Of a DNA stretch of 60,755 bases, positions 15,873 through 38,538 are shown in pieces. Each line of letters opens with the position of its first letter. The stretch's first letter is position 1. Source of the DNA: Methanoregula sp. (lineage in GTDB: Archaea; Halobacteriota; Methanomicrobia; Methanomicrobiales; Methanospirillaceae); assembly GCA_030694985.1 (NCBI GenBank), contig JAUYTV010000056.1:1-60755 (forward strand), in the 5' to 3' direction. The translations under genes were made by a program, and so were the position numbers. The notes beneath the pieces are model-generated. The model searched no databases, was not told the origin of the DNA, and saw only the letters and a program-made list of their open reading frames with translations.

Positions 15873-16145
15873 ATGTTAACACAATAAATTAATTTGTGCG
15901 CGTGGTTAAAATAATTTGGTAAATAATCATTTTTCCGAATCGGGAAGGAAGTTAACATTCGCTGGAGACAATGGTATAAATCCATTCATAAATTATACCC
16001 TCAAACCGAATCGTTTATTGAGAGACAGTGCACTACATTATTTTACATTTACAAAATCTCATTGTTAATGAAAACAATTTCATGAGGATCCAGATATGGA
16101 AAGACAGGATTGCGTGGCGGGAACAGGTACAAGGGGCAGCAGGAC

Positions 16146-18056
16146 ATGGTAAAACGGTACCTCGAACTTCGTTCCCTTGATGATGCGCTTGCCCTTCTCA
16201 CCTCATCCTTTGCAGTCCCTAAAAGAACCGAGATGGTCCCGGTCATGCAATCGGTCGGGCGGGTTGTTGCAGAACCCGTCTTTGCAAAATATTCTGTGCC
16301 GGAAGTAAACCTCTCTGCCATGGACGGTATCGCAGTCAGGAGCCGTGACACCATTGGCGCAGGAGACGGGACACCGGTAACTCTGGACCATTTCGCCAGA
16401 GTTAATACCGGCAACATCGTGCCTCCGGAGTATGATGCGGTCATCATGATCGAAGATGTCTGGGAGGCAGGTGACAATTTCCAGATCCGGCGTGCTGCCT
16501 CACCCTGGCAGCATGTCCGACCTGCCGGAGAAGATATCCGGGAGAACCGGCTCGTACTCCCCAGGGGTCACCTTATCCGGGCTTTCGATATCGGGGCGCT
16601 GGCTACTTATGGGATCACCCGGGTGAAAGTCAAGGCCGTCAATGTCGGTATCATACCGACCGGCAGCGAGCTGGTCCCCCTCGGTGTCCGACCAGCCCCG
16701 GGGCAGGTAGTAGAGAGCAACACCATCATGGCCCAGGTCTTTCTTGACCAGATGGGGGCTACCTGCACACGGCTCCCCATAGTGACAGATGATCCCAATC
16801 TCATCCGTAATGCGCTCAGCAGTGCGGTGGAAGATAATGATCTGGTTATCATCTCTGCGGGTTCTTCTGCCGGCACCCGGGACTTCACCGAGAGTGTTAT
16901 CCGATCGCTCGGAGAGTTGATCTTTCATGGCGTAGCAGTCAGACCCGGTAAGCCGGTGATGCTGGGAATGGTTAAAGGGACACCGGTCCTTGGACTGCCA
17001 GGCTACCCGCTCGCTGCCCAGACCGCCCTCCGTGAATTTGCCGCACCGCTGCTGGAATCGTGGGGATTTCCCCCGGCACCCCGATTTCCCGTCAAGGTCC
17101 GGCTGGCGCAGCCACTCGTTTCGGAACCCGGGTTTGACGAGTTCATTCCGGTCTTTGTTGGCCGTATCGGCTCTTCGCTTTACGGTACACCTCACGGGAA
17201 AGGGGCCGGGGTGCAGATGGCAACTGTCAAGGCTAACGGCTATACCCGCATCCCGGCGCCGGTGGAGGGTTATGAGGCCGGAACCGAGCTCGAGGTTCTT
17301 CTTACCACCGATCCGGGGAGTGTCGAACGCACCCTTATCCTGACCGGCTCGGTGGACCCCTCGTTAGAGGAGCTCGCAAGCCTCGCTCATGACAAGGGTT
17401 TGTTCATTCATGCCACCAACCCCGGTAATATGGGGGCACTCCTTGCCCTGCGACGCAACAGCTGCCATGCGGCTCCGCTCAGCCTGCCGGCCCGGTCCCT
17501 GCTGACATCGTACCAACCCATCATCAAATATATGCCCGTGGGAAATGCTGTCTTTATTCACATCGCCACTATCGAACTGGGGATTGCGTCTTGCGATGGG
17601 CTGGGGTTAGAAGATATCACCGGTACCCGGTTCATAAACACAAAGAGAGAGTCCCCCACCCGGGTGATCCTCGATGCCCTGATGGCCGCAGAAGGTATTG
17701 ACCCGTCAAAGGTGAACGGGTACCTGCAGGAAGTGCATGGTCCCTCTGCAGTGGCAGCCGCGATCCGTAACGGGTTTGCCGATGCCGGTATGTGTACATC
17801 CAGCGTTGCCAGCGCAAACGGGCTACAGTTCGTGCCTGTAGCTCACGAGGATTATGAACTTGCTATACGGCGGGAGTTGCTGGAAGATACCCGTATCCGC
17901 ACGCTGGTATCGCTCATCCAGTCCCCTGCGTATCGCACGATCCTTACAGAGACCGGGGGTTATGATGTCAGCCTTACCGGGACCATACGGGGGTTGAACG
18001 GTGAGAATACCCTAACACCATTTTCACCGGGAATGCTGCCTGCCGGGTATACCTGA
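16146..18056 (+). CDS. moeA: MoeA fused to a C-terminal periplasmic-binding-protein-like domain
   Basis: A 636-residue protein. Residues 1-390 are a complete MoeA, which inserts molybdate or tungstate into adenylylated molybdopterin: MoeA_N with NLSAMDGIAVRS, the MoCF-binding domain with GIIPTGSELVPLG and SAGSSAGTRDF, GVAVRPGKPV and a MoeA_C barrel. Residues about 400-636 form a binding-protein-like domain (LILTGSVDPSLEELA, IATIELGIASCDGLG, FADAGMCTSSVASANGLQFVPVAHEDYELAI) with no export signal, so it would bind its ligand in the cytoplasm. ATG at 16146 is used because earlier starts add a basic tail not typical of MoeA. It converges on a second moeA. Confidence 0.9.
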   Translation: MVKRYLELRSLDDALALLTSSFAVPKRTEMVPVMQSVGRVVAEPVFAKYSVPEVNLSAMDGIAVRSRDTIGAGDGTPVTLDHFARVNTGNIVPPEYDAVIMIEDVWEAGDNFQIRRAASPWQHVRPAGEDIRENRLVLPRGHLIRAFDIGALATYGITRVKVKAVNVGIIPTGSELVPLGVRPAPGQVVESNTIMAQVFLDQMGATCTRLPIVTDDPNLIRNALSSAVEDNDLVIISAGSSAGTRDFTESVIRSLGELIFHGVAVRPGKPVMLGMVKGTPVLGLPGYPLAAQTALREFAAPLLESWGFPPAPRFPVKVRLAQPLVSEPGFDEFIPVFVGRIGSSLYGTPHGKGAGVQMATVKANGYTRIPAPVEGYEAGTELEVLLTTDPGSVERTLILTGSVDPSLEELASLAHDKGLFIHATNPGNMGALLALRRNSCHAAPLSLPARSLLTSYQPIIKYMPVGNAVFIHIATIELGIASCDGLGLEDITGTRFINTKRESPTRVILDALMAAEGIDPSKVNGYLQEVHGPSAVAAAIRNGFADAGMCTSSVASANGLQFVPVAHEDYELAIRRELLEDTRIRTLVSLIQSPAYRTILTETGGYDVSLTGTIRGLNGENTLTPFSPGMLPAGYT

Positions 18057-18217: not shown

Positions 18218-19432
18218 TTATTTCAGCAACTGGACTGAAATCACTGAACCTTTTTTCAGATATTCCTGTTCTTCGGGGATAGAGGCTATTGCCTCTGCCT
18301 CAGCTATGTCTCGCAAACGGCTGCTGCCTTTTAACGGATGAAAAACCGGAAATCCTTCCACTTCTTCGAGTCTGCCAAAGAAAAAATCCGTCCAATCACG
18401 CTCGCGTCCCTCCAGATCAGCGGCAAGCCGGGCATTAATCCGGGGGAGATGGGGATGTGCATGACCCGCAAGGGCAAGCAGGCCGGGCAGGGCGATCTGC
18501 AGGAACCCCATCAGGTTCGAAGACGGGCCGCCAGGTAAAATGAATACGGGTTTTTTGTCCAGCATGCCAAATCCGACAGCCTTTCCGGGACCGATGCGAA
18601 TCCGGTGGAAGTATTGCTGCCATCCAAGACCTTCAAACACCTGCGCTACCAGATCTCGGTCACCGGTCCACGCTCCCCCGCTTGTTATTATCGCATCTGC
18701 ACCGGCAGATTGTGTTTTGAAAGTTTTTGTGAGGGTATCAAAGTCATCGTGTACAACTGTCATGACTGTATTCATCTTGTACCGTTTACACCATGCATGG
18801 CAGGTCAGAATATTACTGGCGTACAGCTTGCCCTCAGAAAGAGCCACTCCCGGTGCAACAATCTCATCTCCGGTGCCTATGATGGCTACGGTCGGATTTT
18901 TAAAAACAGGGACCGTGCTGTGTCCGGCAGCCGCGATAAGACCGATAATCCCCGGCGATAACTGCTGACCTTTCTTTGTTATACAGGTATTGAATTTCAC
19001 ATCATTCCCACAACGCTGAATATTCCGCCCGGGTTCTGCAAAATTCATGATCAAAATATCATTGCCTTCTGGTTTTGCGAATTCTTCGGTCAGAACGGCA
19101 TCCGCACCGGCAGGGATACGGGCGCCGGTCAAAACCCGGATAGTTGTTCCCGACTTGAGTTCAATGTCCTTTGTCGCACCTGCTGCAAGATGACCGGCAA
19201 GTTTCAGGAGTACTGGCTTTTTCTGGGTTGCATCAGCTACTTCATGAGATAATACCGCATATCCGTCTTTTAGGGAGGAGTCCATTGACGGGGAGTTTAC
19301 AAGTGCATAGAGATCCGATGCAGCAACACGGTCAGTACATTCTGCCAGCTTGACACTTTCCACCGCTAACGGCTTAATGTGTTCAAGGGTTATACTGAGC
19401 GCTTCTTCCAGACCCAGGGACAGTTTTTTCAT
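18218..19432 (-). CDS. moeA: Molybdopterin molybdenumtransferase MoeA
   Basis: A 404-residue single-unit MoeA of standard length. It has the N-terminal SPSMDSSLKDGYAV element, TGARIPAGADAVL, the MoCF-binding region IIGTGDEIVAPG, TSGGAWTGDRD and GPGKAVGFG, and a C-terminal barrel. It catalyses metal insertion into molybdopterin. Unlike the convergent paralogue at 16146, it lacks the binding-protein-like extension. Two paralogues are common in archaea and may serve Mo and W separately, but nothing in the sequence tells which is which. The fdh operon lies immediately upstream in the same direction. Confidence 0.92.
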   Translation of the reverse strand: MKKLSLGLEEALSITLEHIKPLAVESVKLAECTDRVAASDLYALVNSPSMDSSLKDGYAVLSHEVADATQKKPVLLKLAGHLAAGATKDIELKSGTTIRVLTGARIPAGADAVLTEEFAKPEGNDILIMNFAEPGRNIQRCGNDVKFNTCITKKGQQLSPGIIGLIAAAGHSTVPVFKNPTVAIIGTGDEIVAPGVALSEGKLYASNILTCHAWCKRYKMNTVMTVVHDDFDTLTKTFKTQSAGADAIITSGGAWTGDRDLVAQVFEGLGWQQYFHRIRIGPGKAVGFGMLDKKPVFILPGGPSSNLMGFLQIALPGLLALAGHAHPHLPRINARLAADLEGRERDWTDFFFGRLEEVEGFPVFHPLKGSSRLRDIAEAEAIASIPEEQEYLKKGSVISVQLLK

Positions 19433-30257: not shown

Positions 30258-31070
30258 TTAATCTGCCCGTATGATTGTTCCAACGTTTTTCCCATTGATC
30301 GCTTTTTCGATATTTCCGCGCTTGTGGCAGTTGATGATCCGCACTTCCCGGATATGCACAGCATTTTCCAGAAGCTGGACTACCATTGGTTCAAGCACCA
30401 TGTCTTCGAGATCCATCCTGATGAGTTCCTTTGCCGTGATATCCCTGATTAGCTCGGCATCAGGATTTTTCCTGGGGTCCTCTGCATACAGCCCATCCAC
30501 ATTCTTGCCGATGATACAGCTCTTCGCCCCGAGCACTTCAGCGATCAGGAATGCACCGGTGTCGGTGCGGTGAGGGGGGACACCCTCGTTTCGAGCGGGG
30601 TGTTCGTACAACCCGTACGGCGGGGTGCCGTGAATGACCGGCAGTATGCCGAGTTTTAAGAGCATCGGAAGTTCGAGAAGATCTGTGGTGTGGATTCGTG
30701 TACCATTGTATTTCGAGAGAAGGATCGAGACCATGATCGCGTTCTGCTCGGAGATCTTTGCCGAGAGTTCCGCAAGGACACCGGTGGGCATACCGAGATC
30801 CATCCCGATGTCCATGATGTGCCGGACCCGCCCACCCCCGCCTGTGACCACGAGAAGTTTTTGTTTTTTGGATAATTCTCCAATCTCTTCGCAGAGCGGG
30901 TGCATCACTTCGCGCCCGTAATCAATTGCCCCGTGCCCTCCAATTTTGATAATATTAATATCCGGTGCAATGCGGATCTGTTCGGATATTTTCCGCTTCG
31001 TCTTCATCATGCCTTTCCGGACAAGGGTCTCACCCTGAAGCCCGCTCTCAAGTTCAAACCGGTTTTTCAT
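30258..31070 (-). CDS. Molybdenum/tungsten storage protein-like amino acid kinase-family protein
   Basis: A 270-residue UMP-kinase-fold protein strongly reminiscent of the Azotobacter molybdenum storage protein subunits MosA/MosB, which use ATP to pack polyoxomolybdate or tungstate into a cage. Shared features are IKIGGHGAIDYGRE, VVTGGGGRVRHI, GTPPYGLYEHPARNEGVPPHRTDTGAFLIAE, DGLYAEDPRKNPDA and the C-terminal VRIINCHKRGNIEKAINGKNVGTII; the length also agrees (about 270). A plain UMP kinase is shorter and lacks the PPHRTDTG loop. It is divergent from a small gene across a candidate Mo/W operator and lies next to tungstate transporter genes. Confidence 0.8.
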   Translation of the reverse strand: MKNRFELESGLQGETLVRKGMMKTKRKISEQIRIAPDINIIKIGGHGAIDYGREVMHPLCEEIGELSKKQKLLVVTGGGGRVRHIMDIGMDLGMPTGVLAELSAKISEQNAIMVSILLSKYNGTRIHTTDLLELPMLLKLGILPVIHGTPPYGLYEHPARNEGVPPHRTDTGAFLIAEVLGAKSCIIGKNVDGLYAEDPRKNPDAELIRDITAKELIRMDLEDMVLEPMVVQLLENAVHIREVRIINCHKRGNIEKAINGKNVGTIIRAD

Positions 31071-31457: not shown

Positions 31458-31811
31458 TCAGGATTCGGACAAGCGCTTGAGGAGAGTTTTTAACACTACC
31501 GGCCCAAGCAAGGCCTCTGCTTCTTTCCGGTATTTCCGGTAAAGACAATCGGCGATGATCCGATTTCCGAGCGAGGTGGCCCACATTCCCCCGCGTTGTT
31601 CAGTACCGATCAACTGATCCTGCTCCATTTCTGACAGGATGGCTGTCATTTTTGACATCGGCATCGAACAAAACATTGCTAGCACCCGCTTTGGAGGCAG
31701 GCGCACACGGACAATGTCCGGGAAAAAGTCTACTTCCAAGGATTTTTCCTGGCAAACCTGTATCCGGATTGCTGCATCGAAGATCTGTTCTGCGGTGATG
31801 CGATCAATCAT
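31458..31811 (-). CDS. Small winged-helix-like regulator, copy A
   Basis: A 117-residue protein from ATG 31811 (GTG 31832 would add seven residues). The order is an N-terminal helix (AEQIFDAAIRIQ), a short beta pair (SLEVDFFPDIVRVRLP), a helix-turn-helix (KRVLAMFCSMPMSKMTAILSEMEQDQLI), a wing (GTEQRGGMWATSLGNRI) and a C-terminal helix. It is paralogous to the protein at 32778-33143 (shared FDAAIRIQ, MEQ(D/E)(Q/E)L and the wing). There is no TOBE metal-binding domain. A candidate operator (site B) lies just upstream, so it may be autoregulated. Confidence 0.6.
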   Translation of the reverse strand: MIDRITAEQIFDAAIRIQVCQEKSLEVDFFPDIVRVRLPPKRVLAMFCSMPMSKMTAILSEMEQDQLIGTEQRGGMWATSLGNRIIADCLYRKYRKEAEALLGPVVLKTLLKRLSES

Positions 31812-31845
31812 CGTTATGTAGTGTATTATCACATGCGGTTTAAAT

Positions 31846-32732: not shown

Positions 32733-32777
32733 GATACGAACCGGCAAAAAGATCCAGTGAAGTCTCTTTATGGAAGC

Positions 32778-33143
32778 ATGTCCAATAATTCCATGAAGAA
32801 CATCATGGCCGCCCTTTCTGTTGATATCCTGTTTGATGCCGCCATCCGCATACAGCTGCTGGAGCGTTCAATCACGATCACATTTGCCGATAATACCATC
32901 CGGATGAAGTTCCCGACAACCCGGCGGCTTGCCGATTTCCTAGATGTCCAGCACTATTACGTGCTGCCCTATTTTGCCATGATGGAGCAGGAGGAGTTGG
33001 TCACACGGGCTGAACGTGTCGGGATCCTGACTACGGCAAAAGGAACCCGGAAGATGGTTGAGCTGATGCGGGAGAAATACTTAAAAGAGTCCAGCGAAAT
33101 TCTCGGCGCCGCAATTTTTGATGAAGTCTTAAGAAAAATATGA
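32778..33143 (+). CDS. Small winged-helix-like regulator, copy B
   Basis: About 121 residues from ATG 32778; ATG 32793 or 32805 are alternatives and no clear ribosome site decides. The fold follows copy A: VDILFDAAIRIQLLERS, a beta pair ITITFADNTIRMKFP, helix-turn-helix TRRLADFLDVQHYYVLPYFAMMEQEELV, wing TRAERVGILTTAKG and a final helix. It is encoded directly upstream of the tungstate-binding protein gene, in the same direction, with site C between them. A role as Mo/W-responsive repressor is inferred from location and paralogy only. Confidence 0.6.
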   Translation: MSNNSMKNIMAALSVDILFDAAIRIQLLERSITITFADNTIRMKFPTTRRLADFLDVQHYYVLPYFAMMEQEELVTRAERVGILTTAKGTRKMVELMREKYLKESSEILGAAIFDEVLRKI

Positions 33144-33302: not shown

Positions 33303-35252
33303 ATGACAAGAAATGTGCATGTAACATTTATTGCAGCGGTATTCGTACTGCTGTTCCTTGCAACCTGCTTTGCCGGTTGTACGAATACCGCCCCGGCATC
33401 GCAAACACCTGTGGCAACACCGGCATCGCAGGTAACCGCCGCTCCGGTTGCAACCCCGGCCGTAACCACTGCGCCGGTAGCAACCGGGCCAAAAACGAGA
33501 CTGCTGCTGGCAACGACAACAAGCCTGTACGATACCGGGCTGCTCACGTACCTGAAGCCCAAGTTTGAGGCACTGTACAATGTTGACCTGCTGATCACTT
33601 CGCAGGGAACCGGCAAAGCCATCGAGCTCGCCAAAAACGGTGATGCCGATGTCTTAATGGTTCACTCCCCCTCGCAGGAAATGTCATTCCTTGAAGGCGG
33701 CAATGGCCTGAACCGCAGGACGTTTGCCTACAACTACTTCATCATTGTAGGCCCCAAAAATGATCCCGCCGGAATCAAGGGTATGAGCCCAGAGGACGCA
33801 TTCAGGACCATCATGGCCAAGGGCAAGGCTGGCGACAAAACGGTTGCATTTGTCTCCCGTGGCGATGCTTCAGGAACTCATAGTGCAGAGCAGAACATCT
33901 GGAAGAGTGCAGGTTATACCTATGCCAAGGATGTCCAGAAGTCCGGGAACTGGTACGTAGAAGCCGGAAAAGGAATGGGAGAAACCCTCCAGATGGCAAG
34001 CGAGAAGGGAGCATACACCTTAACCGATGAAGGCACGTACCTCGCCTACACGAGCAAACTGAATCTCGAACCCCTGGTCTCCCAGGGTGCAATCCTGATG
34101 AACGTGTACAGCGTCATGGCGGTATACAACACCAAACAGCCGGTTGAAAAGATCCAGATGGCTGACAACTTCATCAACTTCATGATCTCCCCGCAGACCA
34201 TGGCAGACATAGGAAATTATGGCAAGGACAAATACGGCAAAGGACTCTTCACGCCGATGACTGCCGGTCTTCCCCCCGGAGTAGCAGCAGACTTTACTAC
34301 CCCGGCAACTGCAATCAAACCGCTCAAGGTCTACCATGCCGGCAGCCTTGCCACATCGTTTGCCAAACTCAAGAAGGTCTTTGAAGCGGCCAACCCGAAC
34401 ACGGATGTGCAGCTCTGGTCTGGCGGAAGCGCAGCGATCATTGACAAAGTGAACAAGCAGAACCAGTACGCCGATGTACTCGCAAGCGCTGATTCGGCCC
34501 TGATTCCAAAGAACCTCTACCCGAAGAACGCCACCTATGATGTGGACTTTGCCAAGAACACCATGGTGCTCGTCTACTCTGACAAGAGCAAATATGCAAA
34601 CCAGATCACGGCAGACAACTGGTATACGATCCTGGAAAAACCAGACGTAACCTATGCGATCAGCGACCCGACTTCAGACCCGGCAGGCTACCGCTCGCTC
34701 ATGACAATTGCGCTTGCCGAGCGCAAGTACGGCGACAACACCATCTTTGACACGCTGGTCAAACCCTACAGTAAAATGACCATGACCTTTGATGGTTCAA
34801 AGCGGACGATCGATGCAACAAAACCCACTCCGGATGGAAAGAAACTGATCATAACAAAGACCGGACCAGAGATTACACCCCTGCTCAAAGACAACAAAGT
34901 TGATTATGCCTTCGAGTACAGCAGCGTTGCCATCCAGAGCGGACTAAAGTATCTCGTCCTGCCCGTAGAGATCGATCTCTCTGATCCTGGCATGAGCAAA
35001 AGTTATGCTTCCGCAGTGGTAATCCGCCCATCAGGAACCACAACCGTGACTGAAGTTGCAACGCCGATCATCTACGGTGTGACAACGCCGACAAGCGCAA
35101 AGAACTTAAACGGCGGTTTGAGCTTTGTCAACCTGCTGTTAAGCAGCGATGGACAGGCAATCCTTACCGCTGATGGTCAGACCCCGATTGTTCCTGCACT
35201 GGTTTCAGGAACAGATGTGCCGGCCACTCTCACAAATGTAAAGAAGATCTAA
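33303..35252 (+). CDS. Tungstate-binding lipoprotein fusing TupA-type and WtpA-type domains
   Basis: A 649-residue exported protein. Residues 1-30 form a lipoprotein-like signal (FVLLFLATCFAGC), then a Thr/Pro/Ala-rich linker. Residues about 55-320 are TupA-like: LLLATTTSLYDTGLL, SQGTGKAIELAKNGDADVLMVHSP and RGDASGTHSAE. Residues about 335-640 are WtpA/ModA-like: LKVYHAGSLATSF, LWSGGSAAIIDKV, SDPTSDPAGYRSLM and VDYAFEYSSVAIQ. Both families bind tungstate/molybdate but are normally separate proteins. It feeds the TupB/TupC genes that follow. Start ATG 33303 places the signal at the N-terminus. Confidence 0.88.
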   Translation: MTRNVHVTFIAAVFVLLFLATCFAGCTNTAPASQTPVATPASQVTAAPVATPAVTTAPVATGPKTRLLLATTTSLYDTGLLTYLKPKFEALYNVDLLITSQGTGKAIELAKNGDADVLMVHSPSQEMSFLEGGNGLNRRTFAYNYFIIVGPKNDPAGIKGMSPEDAFRTIMAKGKAGDKTVAFVSRGDASGTHSAEQNIWKSAGYTYAKDVQKSGNWYVEAGKGMGETLQMASEKGAYTLTDEGTYLAYTSKLNLEPLVSQGAILMNVYSVMAVYNTKQPVEKIQMADNFINFMISPQTMADIGNYGKDKYGKGLFTPMTAGLPPGVAADFTTPATAIKPLKVYHAGSLATSFAKLKKVFEAANPNTDVQLWSGGSAAIIDKVNKQNQYADVLASADSALIPKNLYPKNATYDVDFAKNTMVLVYSDKSKYANQITADNWYTILEKPDVTYAISDPTSDPAGYRSLMTIALAERKYGDNTIFDTLVKPYSKMTMTFDGSKRTIDATKPTPDGKKLIITKTGPEITPLLKDNKVDYAFEYSSVAIQSGLKYLVLPVEIDLSDPGMSKSYASAVVIRPSGTTTVTEVATPIIYGVTTPTSAKNLNGGLSFVNLLLSSDGQAILTADGQTPIVPALVSGTDVPATLTNVKKI

Positions 35253-35273: not shown

Positions 35274-35380
35274 CGCTCTGAAGAAACGGGCACGAACGAG
35301 GCGGCAAACAAACAGATCTCCTGTAAGATCGACTTATTACCGCACCTCGCCAAATATCTTCACATAATCAGGTGATATGG

Positions 35381-36109
35381 ATGGATGAAATAATCACAGG
35401 AATCACGCAGGCATTCAACCTGATCATCACCCTCAATCCCGAGGTTATGCAAATCGCTGCGCTTTCCGTATACATTTCCCTTGCAGCAACAATCCTTGCC
35501 GCCTGCATATCCATACCTCTTGGGGGATTGATTCATTTCCGAAAATTTCGTGGCAAACGAACGCTCAAAATGATCATCCAGACACTCTATTCTGTCCCGA
35601 CCGTGGTAGTCGGCCTTTTAATATATCTCCTGCTCTCACGGAGCGGGCCGCTGGGATTTTTTGGCCTTCTGTTCACTCCCGAAGGAATGATCCTCGGACA
35701 GATGGTACTTATCATTCCCATCACAACAGGCCTTGTAATCTCTGCGCTCAGCGGGGTTGACCAGAACATCAGCGACACGCTTGTATCGCTTGGGGCAACC
35801 GAGTTCCAGGGCATCGTCCAGATCGTAAAAGAGGCCCGGCTTGCAATTCTCAGTGCGGTGATCCTTGCATTCGGAAGAGCGATCTCAGAAGTCGGGGTTG
35901 CGATGATGATTGGAGGAAACATCGCGGGCCAGACACGGGTGCTGACAACCGCAATCGCTCTCCAGACCGGCATGGGAGACTTTGGTTTTTCAATCGCGCT
36001 TGGCATTATCCTTCTTGCCATTGCCCTTGTGATCGTTGTGGCCATGAACCTCATCACCTCTGGCTTTTCATCTGAACATCAACAGGTCATGGGAGGCCCC
36101 CGCTCATGA
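35381..36109 (+). CDS. tupB: Tungstate ABC transporter permease
   Basis: A 242-residue inner-membrane permease with about six hydrophobic segments. The cytoplasmic ABC-docking loop EAA-like motif is SLGATEFQGIVQIVKEARLAILSAVILAFGRAISEVG, typical of TupB. ATG 35381 follows AGGTGAT; GTG 35372 would overlap that ribosome site. It overlaps the ATPase gene by four bases (ATGA). With the binding lipoprotein and ATPase it makes a complete high-affinity oxyanion importer. Confidence 0.92.
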   Translation: MDEIITGITQAFNLIITLNPEVMQIAALSVYISLAATILAACISIPLGGLIHFRKFRGKRTLKMIIQTLYSVPTVVVGLLIYLLLSRSGPLGFFGLLFTPEGMILGQMVLIIPITTGLVISALSGVDQNISDTLVSLGATEFQGIVQIVKEARLAILSAVILAFGRAISEVGVAMMIGGNIAGQTRVLTTAIALQTGMGDFGFSIALGIILLAIALVIVVAMNLITSGFSSEHQQVMGGPRS

Positions 36110-37203
36110 TCAGGATAACCGCACTTACACGCAAGGCAGGAGAACAAAAGATACTGGAGGATATCAATCTTGAAATCCGGCGTGGTGAGATCTTCACGCT
36201 CATCGGTCCATCCGGCAGCGGCAAGACGACCCTGCTGCGGTTGATCGATCTGCTTGACAAGCCCACCTCCGGCAAAATCTTCTTTGACGGTCATGATACT
36301 GCCGGCAGAGAAAAAGAACGACTCTCAATCCGCAGGCGCATGGGCATGGTCTTTCAAAAACCTGCGGTACTCAATGTTACTGTTGCAGAGAATGTGGCAT
36401 TCGGTCTGAAATTCCGTGGCACAAACCCGGCTGAGATCCCACAGCGGGTTACATCCGCTCTGGAACTGGTCGGGCTATCGGGTTTTGAACATCGCAGGGC
36501 AGTCACCCTGTCCGGTGGCGAGATGCAGCGTGTGGCAATCGCACGGGCAATGGTCACCGACCCAGAAGTGCTGCTGCTGGATGAACCCACAGCAAACCTT
36601 GACCCGGTCTCTTCTGAGATCATCGAGGACCTGCTCATCCGGATCAACACTGATCTGCACACCACAATTGTCCTTGCCACGCATGACATGGTCCAGGGTC
36701 AGCGCCTTGCACACCGCATGGGTGTGATCATGAACGGGCACCTTGCGCAGGTGGGCACACTCCACGATATCTTCTACCAGCCCAATGGAAAGGAAGTGGC
36801 ACGGTTTGTCGGGATCGATACCATCTTAAAAGGCGTGGTGCAGTCTAATGAGCGGGGTCATGCCACCGTTGCGCTTGACAATGCCAGCTTTGAAGTGGTC
36901 ACTTCCTGCCCGCCGGGAAAAACCGTAGCGCTCTATATCCGGCCTGAAGAAGTCACAGTCTCAATCCCCGAATCAGGAGCAGGAAAGACCAGCGCCAGAA
37001 ACCAGCTCGTAGGGACAATTACAAAACTGGTCTCACTCGGGCCGTTCATCCGGGTCACTGTAGACTGCGGAACGCCCATCACCGCACTTATCACCACACG
37101 ATCCTGCGGCGAACTGGGCCTCGCAACCGGTATGACCGTGATTGCAAGCGTCAAAGCATCGGCTATACATGTGCGTTCTGATTCCAACTTGCGATCCATT
37201 TAA
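36106..37203 (+). CDS. tupC: Tungstate ABC transporter ATP-binding protein with TOBE domain
   Basis: A 365-residue ATPase. Walker A is GPSGSGKTT (about residue 34), the Q-loop is MVFQKP, the signature is TLSGGEMQR, Walker B is VLLLDEPTANLD and the switch histidine is ATHD. The C-terminal region (about 250-360) carries a TOBE/Mop-type domain (GTITKLVSLGPFIRVTVDCG, ASVKASAIHV) that may sense the oxyanion and inhibit transport when metal is plentiful. Its start overlaps the tupB stop. Confidence 0.93.
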   Translation: MIRITALTRKAGEQKILEDINLEIRRGEIFTLIGPSGSGKTTLLRLIDLLDKPTSGKIFFDGHDTAGREKERLSIRRRMGMVFQKPAVLNVTVAENVAFGLKFRGTNPAEIPQRVTSALELVGLSGFEHRRAVTLSGGEMQRVAIARAMVTDPEVLLLDEPTANLDPVSSEIIEDLLIRINTDLHTTIVLATHDMVQGQRLAHRMGVIMNGHLAQVGTLHDIFYQPNGKEVARFVGIDTILKGVVQSNERGHATVALDNASFEVVTSCPPGKTVALYIRPEEVTVSIPESGAGKTSARNQLVGTITKLVSLGPFIRVTVDCGTPITALITTRSCGELGLATGMTVIASVKASAIHVRSDSNLRSI

Positions 37204-37416: not shown

Positions 37417-38538
37417 TTAAGATACACCCGTTTTAAATTTTTTCTTGATTGCGGGGAGCAGGTACGCAAGTATCATCCCCAAAATAAACGCGACAGTCAT
37501 CGAGCTGATCAGCGCGAGGATTCCAATAATCCCGGTGACAAGAAGAGAATCGGTCTTAAAACTATGGCGGCACATCTCGATACCGACAAAGACGAGAAGC
37601 GCCCCCAGAACCCCGACCGCGATGATGGAGAGCACCTGCGGGGATGAAAAGAAAAGGGCAAGTATAAGAAAGATCAGGCCCGCGTACACGTTAGCCCCGC
37701 CTGTCCGTGCACCGTAGCGGTACTGCCCGGCCAGACCGCCGGCACCGTGGCACATCGGAAACCCCCCAAACGGAACGGAAAAGAGGTTCATAAGACCAAT
37801 GCTTGTCGAGAATTTCTTGGGCGGCACTTCATGAGCAAAGAGATCTTTTGTCAGGAGAGTTGTAGCAAGGATGGCATTTGTAATTGTGAGAACAACCTGC
37901 GGGAGCACGAGAGTTGAAAAGGCAGATGAGAAATCTGTTGGCAGGGGGATGATGAATTGCGGTGCCGGGATCAGGCTGAGGGGAGGAACACCGTAGAGTG
38001 CAATTCCCGCGACAAGGCCCACACCAATGACCACGATCGTTGACAGGTCCGGGATCGACCGGTAACGTGCAAGGAGGAAAAAGCCTGCGATGATGGCAAT
38101 GCCAATGAAAAAGAACAATGGATCCTTTACCACAAATCCCAGGGATGATCGGAACAGGAGGAGGGCAAGCCCCAGTTGGATTCCCCGCACAACACTCTGC
38201 GGCACCCATTTTTCGATAACTGAAAAGAACCGGCCATAACCCAGCACGAGAAAGATGACCCCGAGGATGAGACCCGCAGCTGCGATCTCACCGCTCCCGA
38301 TAGATCCTGCAATTACGATCACCGCCACTGCCTTCATCGGCTCTAGCGGGATAGGTAACCGGTAATAAAGCCCGGTGAGGATGAACCATATCCCAAAGAA
38401 CAAGAGGATATACCGGGCATTGACATCCGAGACCAGCGCCACGGCAAGGATGAGCGGGATGATCGTCCCAAAATCCCCAAGCGATCCCGCCAGCTCGGAG
38501 AGGTTAAATCTCATAGTTGGTAAGGCAGTGTCGGGCAT
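37417..38538 (-). CDS. MOT1-like molybdate/sulfate permease
   Basis: A 373-residue membrane protein with 10 or more hydrophobic segments. The family elements LAGSLGDFGTIIPLILA at the N-terminus and PFGGFPMCHGAGGLAGQYRYGARTGG near residue 245 are those of MOT1 (SulP-related) molybdate transporters known from plants, algae and prokaryotes. It would give an energy-cheaper, lower-affinity route for molybdate beside the ABC importer. It converges with tupC, with 213 bases between the stops. Substrate could also be sulfate. Confidence 0.85.
   Translation of the reverse strand: MPDTALPTMRFNLSELAGSLGDFGTIIPLILAVALVSDVNARYILLFFGIWFILTGLYYRLPIPLEPMKAVAVIVIAGSIGSGEIAAAGLILGVIFLVLGYGRFFSVIEKWVPQSVVRGIQLGLALLLFRSSLGFVVKDPLFFFIGIAIIAGFFLLARYRSIPDLSTIVVIGVGLVAGIALYGVPPLSLIPAPQFIIPLPTDFSSAFSTLVLPQVVLTITNAILATTLLTKDLFAHEVPPKKFSTSIGLMNLFSVPFGGFPMCHGAGGLAGQYRYGARTGGANVYAGLIFLILALFFSSPQVLSIIAVGVLGALLVFVGIEMCRHSFKTDSLLVTGIIGILALISSMTVAFILGMILAYLLPAIKKKFKTGVS

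Follow-up and report, generated by a model that had tools for sequence, protein, structure and literature searches.

The window analysed here, a stretch of 60,755 nucleotides from Methanoregula sp. (assembly GCA_030694985.1, contig JAUYTV010000056.1), carries a gene for a substrate-binding lipoprotein followed by genes for an ABC permease and an ABC ATPase (Table 1). The receptor gene is one ORF, running from an ATG at 33303 to a stop codon at 35250–35252 without an internal stop. The initial annotation, made from the sequence alone, had read it as a single lipoprotein joining two unrelated tungstate-binding families and followed by only one permease and one ATPase, and except for the word 'unrelated' this description is borne out. 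The first half of the protein is matched by the Pfam model PBP_like_2 (aa 62–297, E 1.2e-45) and by the NCBIfam TupA model NF041772 (aa 63–318, E 4.5e-53), whilst the second is matched by SBP_bac_11 (aa 341–625, E 1.9e-36) and by the WtpA model TIGR03730 (aa 341–612), where its 277–279 bits lie above the cut-off of 242.75; the longer WtpA model NF003196 scores 304 against a cut-off of 355. The TupA half, at 180–183 bits, stays below the 400-bit equivalog cut-off of NF041772, yet it is clearly TupA-like. All of the motifs picked out earlier are present (TTTS at 71–74, GDADVLMVHSP, VYHAGSL and VDYAFEYSSVA), and the GCT at the lipobox is kept in 13/13 aligned fusions.

Table 1. Position, strand and supporting evidence of the features at the receptor locus.
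Feature	Position	Strand	Evidence
regA, a small conserved gene for a putative winged-helix regulator, on the upstream side of the fusion; probable ATG 32805	32757..33143	+	
TupA–WtpA fused lipoprotein, putatively tungstate/molybdate-binding, 649 aa	33303..35252	+	Pfam, NCBIfam, orthologues, structure model
Signal peptide with lipobox FAGC, lipid-anchored Cys26	33303..33380	+	Read from sequence
Thr/Pro/Ala linker, disordered, between membrane anchor and TupA domain	33381..33488	+	Low model confidence, aa 16–56
Membrane-proximal TupA-like domain, aa 63–318	33489..34256	+	Pfam, NCBIfam, site residues, Foldseek
Interdomain linker of ~20 residues (FTTPATAIKP)	34257..34322	+	Model confidence ~90
Distal WtpA domain, aa 341–646	34323..35240	+	NCBIfam, residue alignment, Foldseek
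TupB-type permease; ATG probably 35381	35372..36109	+	NF038017, NF041773 profiles
ABC ATPase with TOBE domain (TupC/WtpC-like)	36106..37203	+	Pfam, NCBIfam
MOT1-family molybdate transporter	37417..38538	-	PF16983, 9.7e-54
Molybdenum (tungsten) storage protein-like kinase	30258..31070	-	PDB 2ogx chain B, 6.7e-56

The two families are distinct but not unrelated. Since the Pfam models of the two halves cross-match weakly, although BLASTP aligns nothing between them (E 0.8), the TupA and WtpA halves belong to different families within a single fold superfamily, that of the type II periplasmic-binding-protein fold, and Foldseek finds TupA and WtpA/ModA structures with them. Internal duplication of one family is ruled out by the same BLASTP comparison and by the different profiles that the halves match; an assembly artefact or a missed start or stop splitting the gene in two is ruled out by the occurrence of the fusion as a single ORF in 29 genomes, in two of them (G184 and G205) on single-contig assemblies. 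An AlphaFold2 model of the whole chain, built with 47 related sequences, reached a pLDDT of 89.5 and a pTM of 0.82, and both halves are predicted with high confidence to be complete folds. The structures aligned by Foldseek were M. acetivorans ModA/WtpA (3k6u, TM 0.91 on target) for the WtpA half and Desulfovibrio TupA (5my5, TM 0.88) for the TupA half. The SBD1–SBD2 tandem of the amino-acid importer GlnPQ (6h30) aligned over 615 columns with a TM of just 0.23 on query, which supports the predicted two-domain layout and not the relative orientation of the domains.

The permease beside the fusion gene scores best as TupB: it reaches 234 bits with NF038017, over the cut-off of that model, and 180 bits (E 8e-53) with NF041773, under the 320-bit TupB equivalog cut-off of NCBI, as against just 48 bits with the WtpB model. 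The known TupABC system (Eubacterium/Desulfovibrio TupA; PDB 5my5, 3lr1) resembles this locus in the fold of its receptor, in the TTTS and RGDxSGTH motifs and in having a TupB-type permease. It differs in that its TupA is normally single-domain, whereas that of the fusion carries a C-terminal WtpA domain and scores below the NCBI TupA equivalog cut-off, and in the ATPase: the one encoded at this locus contains a TOBE domain, and its best score is as a WtpC-like protein. The genes around the operon include many linked to tungsten and molybdenum, namely formate dehydrogenases, formylmethanofuran dehydrogenase, FdhD, MoeA, MOT1 and the molybdenum storage protein, and of these the storage protein-like kinase and the MOT1 transporter neighbour the operon in many relatives as well. 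One MoeA (16110–18056, + strand) has a C-terminal PBP_like domain (PF12727), and a second MoeA lies on the other strand at 18218–19432. No Rfam element was found near the operon. The small gene regA, which is found next to most clusters of fusion, TupA or molybdenum-storage genes, and its paralogue at 31458–31832 (- strand) have no Pfam or NCBIfam match; the AlphaFold2 model is confident (pLDDT 92.6) and in its fold weakly resembles DtxR-type metal regulators (best E 0.004), and small proteins of this type are a candidate family of tungsten/molybdenum regulators.

Binding-site residues and selection on the two halves

The oxyanion site of TupA has been described as comprising TTTS, H59, R118, T124 and D170 (PMC5517513), and all of these residues are kept in the fusion (T71–S74, H121, R186, T192 and D242). 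In WtpA of Pyrococcus furiosus, mutation of the aspartate D160 abolishes tungstate selectivity (PMC10221389); this residue corresponds to D459 of the fusion and is invariant in 46/46 WtpA sequences compared. The second carboxylate ligand in solved WtpA structures is Glu218 of P. furiosus (PMC10221389, PMC4139814). At that position the fusion of the window carries G, and a glutamate (E538) is found instead in column 235, where solved WtpA proteins have Ile (FIY to FEY). Columns follow A. fulgidus numbering, in which the equivalent of Glu218 is also numbered 218. Column 218 is G in 11/13 fusions and S in stand-alone WtpA proteins of the order. Glutamate at 235 without glutamate at 218 occurs in 38 of the 46 sequences, fused or not, the pattern of the solved structures (Glu 218, Ile 235) in four and both glutamates in one; among the remainder, neither glutamate is present in L043, the reading of L044 is ambiguous, and one sequence is incomplete. 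It is plausible, from this alignment, that a metal ligand has been relocated, with E538 in place of E218, and the 38/46 count suggests such a relocation in many archaeal WtpA proteins. The WtpA half is like the receptors of WtpABC (ModA/WtpA of P. furiosus and A. fulgidus; PDB 3cg1, 2onk) in its TIGR03730 score, fold and selectivity aspartate, and unlike them in its second ligand column, in its position behind TupA and in belonging to a genome without WtpB.

Both halves are under similar strong purifying selection. Between the window and L035, the TupA half gave a dN/dS of 0.098 and the WtpA half one of 0.088, and values of 0.03–0.13 were obtained for both domains, where computable, in the comparisons of the window with L036 and L037 and of L038 with L040; the pair L043 and L044 was higher, at 0.35–0.44. 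These values rule out the window gene being a relic or pseudogene. The ratio of WtpA to TupA divergence had a median of 1.85 for fused and 0.58 for unfused genes (unfused range 0.45–0.85), in pairs that are non-independent and with some unfused TupA genes that may be non-orthologous. This higher ratio in the fused genes, a sign that WtpA diverges faster there relative to TupA, fits release from a dedicated permease, and could also reflect a lost docking role.

Distribution and history of the fusions

A survey of Methanoregulaceae found orthologues of the fusion in 29 of 108 genomes, the window's own included, in 16 of the 59 of good quality and in 8 of 17 genera; named matches are Methanoregula, Methanolinea and related MAGs. 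These orthologues are 51–92% identical and are always one ORF. The fused WtpA halves fall into a single clade (support 100/99), to which L104, truncated at a contig end, also belongs, and a single origin of the fusion in Methanoregulaceae is therefore most likely, with some later loss. The TupA halves are interspersed in the tree with stand-alone TupA genes from the same family. Behind the TupA stop codon of L112 and L035, a 95–99 bp relic of the WtpA half was detected (62.6 and 55.4 bits, against <=29 in 200 shuffles), which indicates that at least that lineage formerly had a WtpA half there and lost it. A relic was found behind only 2 of the 81 stand-alone TupA genes searched, so for most TupA-only genes an origin as truncated fusions is not supported; the PATATKP tail common to stand-alone TupA genes is only suggestive as a trace of fusion. 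In related families (L106–L111, L059), tupA-tupB-tupC adjoins wtpA-wtpB-wtpC, a layout that hints at how a fusion could arise. A literature search of open-access text found no earlier description of such a fusion, which is apparently an undescribed variant of known tungstate importers and not a new kind of system.

The genomes that carry the fusion differ in their permeases. In the window genome, which is 96% complete, the fusion is the one WtpA, and a search with the WtpB model found no WtpB: true WtpB proteins in the genome set score 224–300 bits, and the best match outside the operon is ModB, at 170 bits, from the ModABC genes on contig C38. No gene scoring as WtpB was found in G004, G018, G179, G182, G184, G185 or the genome of L037, some of which are incomplete drafts; G171, G172, G178 and G205 gave matches of 143–181 bits. 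Where a permease adjoins the fusion it is TupB (13/13 genomes). In Methanolinea-type genomes the fusion lacks a neighbouring permease gene; these genomes retain WtpABC as a separate system, and their TupB is encoded elsewhere. In G012 the receptor at the same locus is TupA alone, and TupB is 97% identical.

A search for other fusions, which covered one archaeal phylum, found the reverse order, WtpA–TupA, in five genomes belonging to three further families (L118–L122), with TupA halves that likewise lie below the NF041772 cut-off (183–206 bits for single copies). These proteins join the same two families in one chain as the fusion of the window. They differ in domain order, in having PGF-CTERM anchors in some cases and in adjoining WtpB or TupB; the sequence of their domains and the placement of each half in the tree show an origin separate from that of the Methanoregulaceae fusion, as a case of convergence. 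In L118 and L122, WtpA lies behind an N-terminal membrane segment (an anchor read by eye) and the adjacent permease is WtpB. No TupB was found in the genomes concerned (G264 and G273), which are in this respect a mirror image of the window genome without WtpB. At L120 the adjacent permease is TupB, and TupA precedes a PGF-CTERM anchor at the C-terminus; near this reverse fusion a WtpA–ModA fusion has ModA before PGF-CTERM, with ModB. Over these and the Methanoregulaceae fusion with its TupB, four arrangements in all, the family of the adjacent permease matches the domain nearest the membrane anchor; rules based on the first or the last domain do not cover all of them, whilst 'the domain next to the anchor' fits all. 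No permease adjoins the fusions of L119 and L121, and the genome of L119 (G316) is a possible exception, with WtpB but no TupB and a C-terminal TupA domain. The two genes of L120 (4048–6186 and 13055–15277, - strand) lie ~7 kb apart; their WtpA half is apparently identical, and they differ in the second domain, ModA or TupA, with the permease gene beside either one being of the corresponding family, which represents domain swapping between uptake systems.

A proposed single channel for two binding domains

The initial annotation had envisaged a dual-domain receptor sharing one channel, and with TupB adjacent and WtpB missing from the genome this is still the best reading; the two halves might, as was also suggested there, bind different oxyanions. 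We give a probability of roughly 0.62 to the fusion being a GlnPQ-like tandem receptor, lipid-anchored and serving a type I ABC importer of tungstate, possibly also of molybdate, in which the distal WtpA feeds the TupB channel. The proximal TupA domain would catch the oxyanion and dock on TupB, as the pairing of these families implies, and the distal WtpA domain would be a second, independently folding capture site for the same TupB–ATPase channel, on which it is placed because the window genome has no WtpB. In GlnPQ, the proximal substrate-binding domain has another affinity than the distal one, and the two compete for a single translocator (PMC8025302). Like the fusion, GlnPQ has two complete substrate-binding domains per chain near one translocator, with a short linker. 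Its amino-acid-binding domains are covalently attached to the permease, whereas the fusion is a separate lipoprotein on its own lipid anchor, with the permease as an ORF of its own, joins two non-orthologous families and putatively binds oxyanions. The weak step is the hand-over of ligand from WtpA to TupB, and the odds that it occurs by direct docking are about even; WtpA might instead raise local tungstate or pass its ligand to TupA. Against a tandem receptor also count the loss of the second ligand of solved WtpA (E218, G in the fusion), the Methanolinea-type genomes with their separate WtpABC and no permease beside the fusion, and the many relatives without a WtpA half, which mark it as dispensable.

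The 97% identity of TupB in G012, where TupA stands alone, shows no visible adaptation to WtpA and speaks for a different role, in which the WtpA half is a distal antenna that concentrates tungstate near the membrane and never docks, TupA alone docking on TupB. This unlikely alternative draws further on the WtpA half having diverged faster, relative to TupA, in the fused genes, and on the match of the adjacent permease to the membrane-proximal domain alone in each arrangement (TupB; WtpB in L118 and L122; TupB and ModB in L120). It has to contend with the strong purifying selection on both halves, and with the expectation that a tight binder unable to hand over its ligand would trap tungstate. 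Delivery in trans, to ModB in the window genome or to WtpB where present, could draw on the ModABC genes of the former and on the WtpB and stand-alone WtpA that Methanolinea-type fusion genomes keep, but it is improbable given that TupB adjoins the fusion in all 13 genomes with a neighbouring permease and that G018, G179, G182, G184 and G185 have no match at all in the WtpB or ModB range. That the WtpA half is a remnant being lost, with no present role, as the relics behind TupA in L112 and L035 and the many TupA-only relatives might suggest, is very improbable in view of its dN/dS of 0.03–0.12 in Methanoregula and Methanolinea pairs where computable, its high-confidence predicted fold and its retention in eight genera.

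If the tandem receptor is set beside the reverse fusions, a general archaeal design can be proposed, albeit tentatively and as a doubtful extension: the membrane-proximal domain would pick the permease and the distal domain would be a permease-independent capture module from another tungstate/molybdate family; after fusion, the permease of the distal family would tend to be lost, and the coordination chemistry of the distal domain would drift. TupABC and WtpABC have been handled as separate tungsten systems in a comparative survey (PMC6147048). Uptake systems are miscounted when fusion genes are labelled only as TupA or only as WtpA. A receptor that unites both families, fused independently in several archaea and tied to permease loss, offers a natural experiment on what decides which permease a binding protein uses; the fusions also bear on tungsten/molybdenum selectivity in methanogens. 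In L121 (2003–4663, - strand) the combination is a triple one, a WtpA–TupA–TupA chain, 886 aa in length, that carries a PGF-CTERM anchor.
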